In this document: one piece after another, positions 46,596 through 47,840 of the stretch
Position numbering within the stretch: position 1 is the stretch's first letter
Layout of the letters: each line of letters starts with the position of its first letter
Source: Agrobacterium arsenijevicii
GTDB taxonomy: Bacteria > Pseudomonadota > Alphaproteobacteria > Rhizobiales > Rhizobiaceae
Length of the DNA: 64,000 nucleotides
Reading direction: 5' to 3'
Assembly: GCA_000949895.1 (NCBI GenBank)
Contig: JWIT01000003.1
Coordinates: 62,001 to 126,000, forward strand
Made by a program: the position numbers and the translations under genes
Notes under the pieces: model-generated
What the model saw: only the letters and a program-made list of their open reading frames with translations
The model's database searches: none
Told to the model about the DNA's origin: nothing

Positions 46596-47840
46596 GTGAC
46601 GAGCCGTGCCGATGACGAAAAATTCATGGCCCGCGCAATTGAGGTTTCCCTCCGCCATCAGGGTCAAACGCTCGCCAACCCTTCGGTCGGCTGTGTTCTC
46701 GTAAAAGACGGAAAAATCATCGCCGAAGCGGTGACCGCCGTGGGCGGTCGTCCCCATGCCGAACGGCAGGCGCTGGAAATCGCCGGCGAGGCGGCGCGTG
46801 GGGCCACCGCCTATGTCACGCTCGAACCCTGCTCGCACTGGGGCAAGACCCCGCCCTGCGCCAATGCGCTGGTCGAATATGGCGTTGCCCGTGTCGTGGT
46901 CGCCGTGGACGATCCGGATGAGCGCGTTTCGGGACGCGGTTACTCTATCCTGCGCGATGCGGGCATTGTGGTGGAGACCGGCCTGCTACGCGACGAAGGC
47001 AAGAGAGCGCTTGCCGGTTACCTCACACGGCAGATTAAAAAACGCCCGCATGTGATTCTGAAGCTTGCGATTTCCGCTGATGGCATGATCGGCAGGAGAG
47101 GCGAGGGGCAGGTGGCGATCACCGGGCGCGAGGCTCGCCACGCCGTGCATGAACTCCGGGCGCGTTGTGATTGCATCCTTGTTGGTATCGGGACCGCGAT
47201 TGCGGATGATCCGGAATTGACGGTCCGCGTTGAAGGTCTAGAGGATCGTTCTCCGGTCCGCATCGTGCTTGATCGCCATTTTGAGTTGCCGCTGATGTCG
47301 AAGCTGGTGAAGACGGCGCGCGAAGTACCGGTGGTGATTGCGGCGTTACCCCCCTCTGCCCTGCCGGGCATCTCCCCCTCAAGGGGGGAGATCGACTCGC
47401 CGCGACCGACTCGTTCAAATCTTGAACCCGTTACTCATTCGCCCACCTTTGATGTCGGGAAAAATGCTGCCCCATCGATCTCCCCCCTTGAGGGGGAGAT
47501 GCCCGGCAGGGCAGAGGGGGGTAGCCCCGACCGCCGACGCCAACAACTGACCGACGCCGGTGTCGAAATCCTCGAAGCCGCAACGCTCGAAAATCTTCTC
47601 CACATTCTCGCCGAACGCGGCATGTCGGAACTTCTGGTCGAAGGCGGCGCTTTTGCCGCAAAATCATTCCTTGAAGCTGATCTGGTGGACCGTATCATGC
47701 TGTTTGAAAGCCCGGTGGTGATCGGTGAGGGCGGGATTGAAACGCCGCTCAACCGTGCCGATATCACGGGCGATTATGTTCTGGTCAGCGAAACCGCCTA
47801 CGGGCCGGATCGCTGCTTCGATTATGAAAGGCCGCTTTGA
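46596..47840 (+). CDS. ribD: Bifunctional riboflavin deaminase/reductase RibD with in-frame palindromic insertion
   Basis: Second and third steps of riboflavin synthesis. 414 residues against about 365 for typical RibD. The deaminase domain (about 1-145) has the zinc motifs HAERQALE and PCSHWGKTPPCANAL. The reductase domain starts near HVILKLAISADGMIGR and ends LVEGGAFAAKSFLEADLVD. Between VVIAA and RRQQLTDAGVEILEA the reductase is interrupted by about 59 residues encoded by a 177-base palindromic element with no stop codon. The flanking family sequence resumes in frame, so the protein could still fold with a surface loop. Start is GTG, two bases after nrdR. Its stop overlaps the ribE ATG. 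Confidence 0.93.
   Translation: MTSRADDEKFMARAIEVSLRHQGQTLANPSVGCVLVKDGKIIAEAVTAVGGRPHAERQALEIAGEAARGATAYVTLEPCSHWGKTPPCANALVEYGVARVVVAVDDPDERVSGRGYSILRDAGIVVETGLLRDEGKRALAGYLTRQIKKRPHVILKLAISADGMIGRRGEGQVAITGREARHAVHELRARCDCILVGIGTAIADDPELTVRVEGLEDRSPVRIVLDRHFELPLMSKLVKTAREVPVVIAALPPSALPGISPSRGEIDSPRPTRSNLEPVTHSPTFDVGKNAAPSISPLEGEMPGRAEGGSPDRRRQQLTDAGVEILEAATLENLLHILAERGMSELLVEGGAFAAKSFLEADLVDRIMLFESPVVIGEGGIETPLNRADITGDYVLVSETAYGPDRCFDYERPL
47347..47523. repeat. 49-bp perfect inverted repeat element inside ribD
   Basis: Arms 47347-47395 and 47475-47523 are exact reverse complements over 49 bases with a 79-base centre. Each arm contains its own hairpin (TCTCCCCC...GGGGGAGA type). Total length is 177 bases, exactly 59 codons, open in the ribD frame. 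It encodes a Pro/Ser/Gly-rich stretch beginning PPSALPGISPSRGEID and ending SPLEGEMPGRAEGG. It carries no transposase and looks like a mobile palindromic element comparable in concept to Rickettsia palindromic elements. Confidence 0.92.

Follow-up and report, generated by a model that had tools for sequence, protein, structure and literature searches.

A dispersed palindrome carried in frame in ribD of Agrobacterium, with its centre in opposite orientation in different species

In-frame palindromic repeats are already known from Rickettsia and, as REPs or MITEs, from other bacteria. The RIME and Sm repeats of Rhizobium and Sinorhizobium are palindromic. They are dispersed rhizobial repeats, excluded from an intergenic sRNA search in the passage cited (PMC2245857), and are likened to the present element by description only; no RIME1 or RIME2 consensus was found in a literature search for the rhizobial repeat. 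Rickettsia palindromic elements (RPEs) are described in the passages cited as about 105–150 bp in length, dispersed, and translated in frame in conserved proteins (PMC2229807, PMC10969869, PMC3733652). Wolbachia counterparts are known from a title cited in those papers. Further systems resemble the present element in part, according to the passages cited: dispersed hairpins that lie within open reading frames or are fused with them (GTAG and CGTC REPs, ERIC, Yersinia and Correia repeats; PMC3733652, PMC2229807); the Correia elements (CREE/NEMIS) of Neisseria, hairpin elements with TA ends, inversion of which is reported in N. gonorrhoeae (PMC2229807, PMC10969869); the small inversions of chloroplast DNA, which recur at palindromes that can form stem-loops and are correlated with hairpin stability (PMC3123225); and the mitochondrial coding palindromes of Nematomorpha, long perfect inverted repeats in coding genes, suggested to be actively maintained (PMC6649704).

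The element described here lies in ribD of Agrobacterium arsenijevicii, within a window (the whole stretch of DNA analysed) of 64,000 nucleotides. The reading favoured with good confidence is that a dispersed palindrome sits in frame in ribD, and that its centre, opposite between species, was probably flipped in place via the near-identical arms, by strand exchange or replication template switching.

Palindrome within ribD and its repeat family

The bifunctional deaminase/reductase gene ribD occupies 46596..47840 of the + strand (414 aa, GTG start; assigned from the open reading frame list, Pfam and solved relatives) and carries the insert in its reductase domain. Two arms of 49 bp, 100% complementary, enclose 79 nt, as the original prediction had it and as arm alignment confirms. 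The left arm (47347..47395) encodes PPSALPGISPSRGEI in RibD and has copies elsewhere in the genome. The right arm (47475..47523), its exact reverse complement, encodes ISPLEGEMPGRAEGG. The central segment (47396..47474) is inverted relative to the centre of other Agrobacterium species. With two mismatches, the inverted-repeat alignment extends to 55 bp (47341-47395 / 47475-47529; 96% over 55 bp). The imperfect outward extensions are 47341..47346 on the left, where the true border may be further out to judge by the outer flanks of other copies, and 47524..47529 on the right. Folded as RNA, the element reaches −141.8 kcal/mol, whereas 200 shuffles average −72.0 (z −16); the hairpin is thus far beyond chance.

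The ribD frame is free of stops through the whole palindrome. The predicted length of 177 bases or 59 codons without a stop stands, perhaps plus a few codons, but the interval first given was one base off the codon register: in the RibD frame, the element's codons span 47346-47522, RibD residues 251–309. Borders are approximate, the empty sites of relatives being too diverged to place them by eye. Pfam finds dCMP_cyt_deam_1 and RibD_C on the open reading frame, the latter in two stretches, of which the best ends at residue 248. RibD is otherwise intact, and family sequence continues on both sides of the insert, again as predicted.

RibD was found in 39/39 genomes of the genus. An alignment of the stretch joining the RibD halves shows the insert present at this site in 27 genomes and missing from 11; in the remaining congener (G018) a contig ends at the first bases of the element (L143). 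The inverted repeat is present in 27/27 carriers. Inserts measure 147–228 nt in 26 of them and 69 nt in one, which is loop-deleted (G033). Empty congeners have 6–57 nt at the site and no inverted repeat. Of 25 in-genus centres tested, 23 leave the RibD reading open. Broken frames within the element occur in G026 and G012 of the genus and in G254 of another genus (loci L046, L054 and L156); length changes in L046 and L054 are mainly in C or G runs, and the broken frames of G026 and G012 may be sequencing errors.

A search of 297 genomes of the family yielded 30 RibD loci, 24 of them from other genera, and 21 of these 24 are without this element family. Two g29 loci carry the family, and so does one g75 locus, in which the frame is broken and additional arms are present. 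Among named relatives, Rhizobium oryzicola and Rhizobium sp. SL86 carry the element. Two g45 loci hold a different dispersed repeat at the same loop (L153:1798-1950 and L154:1798-1914; peptide SPRPRGEGARRADEG), for which the two genomes give 88 and 95 matches. This second repeat suggests that the RibD loop has been struck more than once and is likely a recurrent landing site. With 27 of 39 congeners filled and 11 empty, the insertion reads as old and lineage-restricted, and as no universal feature of RibD. The outcome named in advance as refuting, a segment shared by all Rhizobiaceae RibD proteins with no copies elsewhere, is not what these alignments and the genomic searches found: empty relatives and genomic copies both exist.

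Whole-genome BLAST with the element gave 63 matches, which resolve into the ribD element, another 22 full copies and 4 copies truncated by contig ends; the copies elsewhere for which a search with the arm had been proposed do exist. Copy numbers are lower bounds, as four contigs of the window's assembly end inside the element (L023, L025, L026, L027). The 22 other full copies are 155–179 bp long (most 155–159), with arms alike and centres different. The inverted repeat is present in all 23 full copies of the genome, as delimited by BLAST; 17 of the 23 begin and 15 end with TA, in the manner of MITEs. Identity with GTAG REPs was rejected: the arms are 49 bp and not a stem-loop of 20–40 bp, and only the ribD copy of the 23 reads TAG after the G run. 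Against Rfam, the sole match of the element, on both strands, was to a miRNA-like hairpin and fell below threshold. We know of no recombinase or transposase of this repeat family.

The family was found in 5 of 6 further Rhizobiaceae genomes searched. By sequence, the ribD element belongs to a dispersed, many-copy palindrome of RPE-like kind and is inserted in frame in a conserved gene whose reading stays open. That the same arms lie inside other genes of this genome, as raised in the original prediction, is not supported: among nine chosen open reading frames over 8 other copies, Pfam domains occur in two, on one side only, and none flanks the element on both sides. Open frames are listed beside copies in an element-peptide search of the genus. 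Recent mobility is likewise not supported, since the ribD copy and two intergenic copies hold the same sites in many species. Matches between intergenic copies extend to about 220 bp, and at the L022 site filled and empty genomes differ by a similar length, as judged from coordinates.

The 168-bp copy G000:C74:39521-39688 (L002), with matches in G006, G010, G011, G025, G033 and G034, adjoins open frames of ~950 aa in several species, and may be one old shared copy lying where a long gene ends. Elsewhere in the window (44533-44700), an early-started glyA frame encodes the peptide SSSGLTRGSTAARRMDPRVKPEDD, which we take to resemble another dispersed alphaproteobacterial repeat.

Orientation of the centre

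Orientation was parsed in 29 of 35 ribD loops (left out: L045, L052, L053, L153, L154 and L169). Class A comprises loops that match the reference L030 forward, the window included; class B comprises loops that match it as the reverse complement. In clade 1, eight loops, among them L030 itself and that of the window, align with L030 in the forward direction, and another 11 do so only once reverse-complemented, with z values of 10.8 to 15.2 against −1.2 to 1.3. L045 joins the inverted class by its loop sequence. When the 8 A loops are paired with the 9 B loops, all of intact frame, 72/72 cross pairs are closer after flipping, and mean identity rises from 31.6% to 67.5%. In clade 2, identity rises on flipping from 43% to 73% between L047 and L048 and from 36% to 79% between L047 and L051; L049 is like L047, and L052 looks like L047 by eye. 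Loops with no or only a weak orientation call are L050, L071, L074, L149, L150 and L156; loops of other genera are likewise unassigned or weak. Among 120 RibD proteins listed out of 7999 found, 31 are of type A, 41 of type B, 33 short (376–395 aa, loop-deleted or decayed), 3 and 1 of the two clade-2 types, 1 other and 10 unparsed.

In the flipped reading, one stop is present in all 8 A loops examined, at a corresponding place. In the window it is the opposite-strand TGA at 47435..47437 (− strand), in frame as codon 280 if the centre is flipped; a flip in this strain would truncate RibD there. Of the frame-intact B loops, 8/9 are open when flipped. Selection for dual coding was considered and rejected, on account of the stop in all 8 A loops and because other unused frames are often open too.

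The tree of the ribD flanks calls for at least 7 orientation changes among 20 rows. The loops' own tree calls for only 2, and a single A clade is not rejected (p-AU 0.33). L030 and L045 are alike in their flanks at 997 of 1005 sites, whereas their loops agree at only 59 of 83 after flipping. Such near-identical flanks with dissimilar loops make it appear that ribD alleles have been exchanged between species, and seven in-gene flips are for these reasons not claimed; what is claimed is that each of the two clades has seen one or more flips. The best A–B pair in ribD is at most 75% identical after flipping and no fresh flip is seen, which argues that the in-gene flips are ancient.

Two intergenic sites were compared in the same way. 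At the site near a 2-thiouracil desulfurase gene, loops were parsed in 19 of the 20 orthologous loci retrieved: L176, L180, L186, L189 and L190 are inverted relative to 11 others, and L192–L194 are unassigned. Of 25 loci retrieved for the L009 site, 14 entered the comparison (left out as partial matches: L207, L208, L211–L219), with 7 loops in each orientation. Two pairs chosen for their likeness at this site are identical at 64/66 and 63/65 positions when flipped, against 23/66 and 18/65 before, and are read as close to fresh inversions. Inversion of the centre, as read from these alignments, is not peculiar to ribD, being seen at both intergenic sites examined.

Constraint and rival explanations

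Third codon positions compared over 17 species show a difference of 0.8% within the arms (30 positions), against 26.9% in the surrounding ribD. Identity is 97% over the whole arms and 72% over the loop. With third-position change so far below that of the enzyme, the arms likely evolve as a DNA element, by nucleotide-level selection or by exchange with other copies, and not as protein. Exchange among copies alone would not keep the species so alike, which suggests nucleotide-level constraint or exchange across species. Arm changes counted over 26 elements comprise 15 cells alike in both arms and 47 in one arm only (deleted, frame-broken or misaligned L045, L046, L050, L053, L054 and L156 left out); compensatory, arm-to-arm correction is only hinted at.

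The loop has a pN/pS of 0.47–0.66, against 0.10–0.11 in the enzyme at similar pS, and its peptide appears weakly constrained. The AlphaFold model of RibD (57-row alignment, mean pLDDT 85.4) has its best structural matches in solved RibD/RibG chains. Residues 257–308 have pLDDT < 50, while 350 of the 362 other residues are at ≥ 70; the low-pLDDT loop lies between a strand (246–250) and a helix (311–320). The insert is accordingly modelled as a disordered loop in the reductase domain, and RibD would likely tolerate either reading of the centre. A separate shorter RibD is unlikely on this model, since the insert interrupts a single domain, which has strands on either side of it. The original prediction left open whether RibD tolerates or has domesticated the loop, and tolerance is the likelier of the two. 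The weak constraint on its peptide, and the frequency of loop-deleted or decayed RibDs among close relatives, make the insert look like a tolerated passenger and not like a domesticated part. A selected role of the inserted peptide would agree with its retention in 27 of 39 congeners and with a centre pN/pS below 1; it is quite unlikely, however, given that the ratio in the enzyme is four to six times lower, that 33 of the 120 listed RibDs are short, that two unrelated peptides, one from either strand, are in use, and that the loop is predicted to be disordered.

On the preferred reading, an old resident selfish palindrome would sit in ribD, tolerated as a loop. Its near-identical arms would promote recombination or replication template switching; exchange between the arms would flip the centre in situ and bring the opposite strand into frame, and arm symmetry would preserve the reading frame after the flip. 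We infer such flips through the arms to be old in ribD, and part of the present patchiness of orientation to come from ribD allele exchange between species. That the element is a live coding inverter, flipping in growing populations with both strands alternately sense, is judged unlikely; ribD orientation was compared between species only. If this were the case, two RibD forms would exist and, in A-class strains, reversible RibD-off cells. Errors of assembly at a long hairpin are a hardly credible source of the orientation differences. Contigs do break at the element, and it is mainly runs of C or G that distinguish the copies with a broken frame, as would be so for sequencing errors. Both classes, though, occur in assemblies of 2–6 contigs and differ in base sequence as well, and every one of the 8 A loops has a stop in the flipped reading.

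Replacement of the centre by gene conversion from dispersed copies carrying the opposite orientation would draw on the 22 further full copies with the same arms and agrees with the near invariance of the arms and with L045, in which ribD segments are seen to be exchanged. The ribD centres nevertheless match the ribD centres of other species, and against the 22 other copies of the window's genome z is at most 4.5, forward or reverse. When an A loop extended by 12 nt of arm was searched against 39 genomes, with no more than 23 candidates per genome scored, all 19 matches listed at E < 1e-7 fell in ribD; the matches listed outside ribD did not exceed 51 nt, and almost all of them started where the arm ends. 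The lack of a ribD-type centre among the other copies and genomes searched argues for inversion in place and not for replacement, and gene conversion is regarded as highly improbable. Within the same limits of search, no source copy was found for two independent insertions of opposite orientation at one RibD site, later mixed by allele exchange with no inversion in place. Either orientation could insert, the element ends being symmetric, and the site is reused, the g45 RibD loop having taken another repeat family; yet the double orientation extends to clade 2 and to both intergenic sites examined, two pairs at the L009 site being 97% identical when flipped, and independent insertion is considered very unlikely. 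Inversion in place remains the preferred reading.

Comparison with described elements

The segment between coding palindrome arms inverted, the opposite strand brought into frame and the frame kept by arm symmetry would be new, and so would the setting in a core biosynthetic enzyme (vitamin B2) in many species. Among papers listed by searches of an open-licence library, none reports, in its title or the start of its abstract, a coding palindrome in RibD that can invert; as evidence of absence this is weak. The A, B, loop-deleted and empty RibDs form a natural series for testing the neutrality of such loops, and third positions that hardly change in coding arms point to DNA-level forces within a protein gene.

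The parallel with RPEs drawn in the original prediction holds in part. Like the RPEs of the passages cited, the ribD copy is a dispersed palindrome of an alphaproteobacterial genome, in frame in a conserved protein, and RibD is otherwise intact. RPEs differ in that many genes are struck, against one known gene in this genome; in that they are described as losing repeat identity (PMC6649704, in the passage cited), whereas the arms of the ribD element are nearly perfect; and in that the ribD-element centre is inverted between species, of which the passages of PMC2229807, PMC10969869, PMC3733652 and PMC6649704 hold no report for RPEs. REPs differ in their units of 20–40 bp, and no inverted centre within a gene is described for them in the passages of PMC3733652 and PMC2229807. 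In Correia elements, according to the passages cited, the inversion concerns promoters near genes, whereas the ribD centre is in frame in an enzyme gene. Chloroplast inversions differ in occurring in organelle DNA and not, as at ribD, in bacterial coding sequence. The Nematomorpha palindromes differ in that they form no dispersed bacterial element, and the word inversion is absent from the part of PMC6649704 cited. By analogy, the ribD element would work like an RPE, with inversion as reported for Correia elements and chloroplast hairpins; no membership of those families is claimed.
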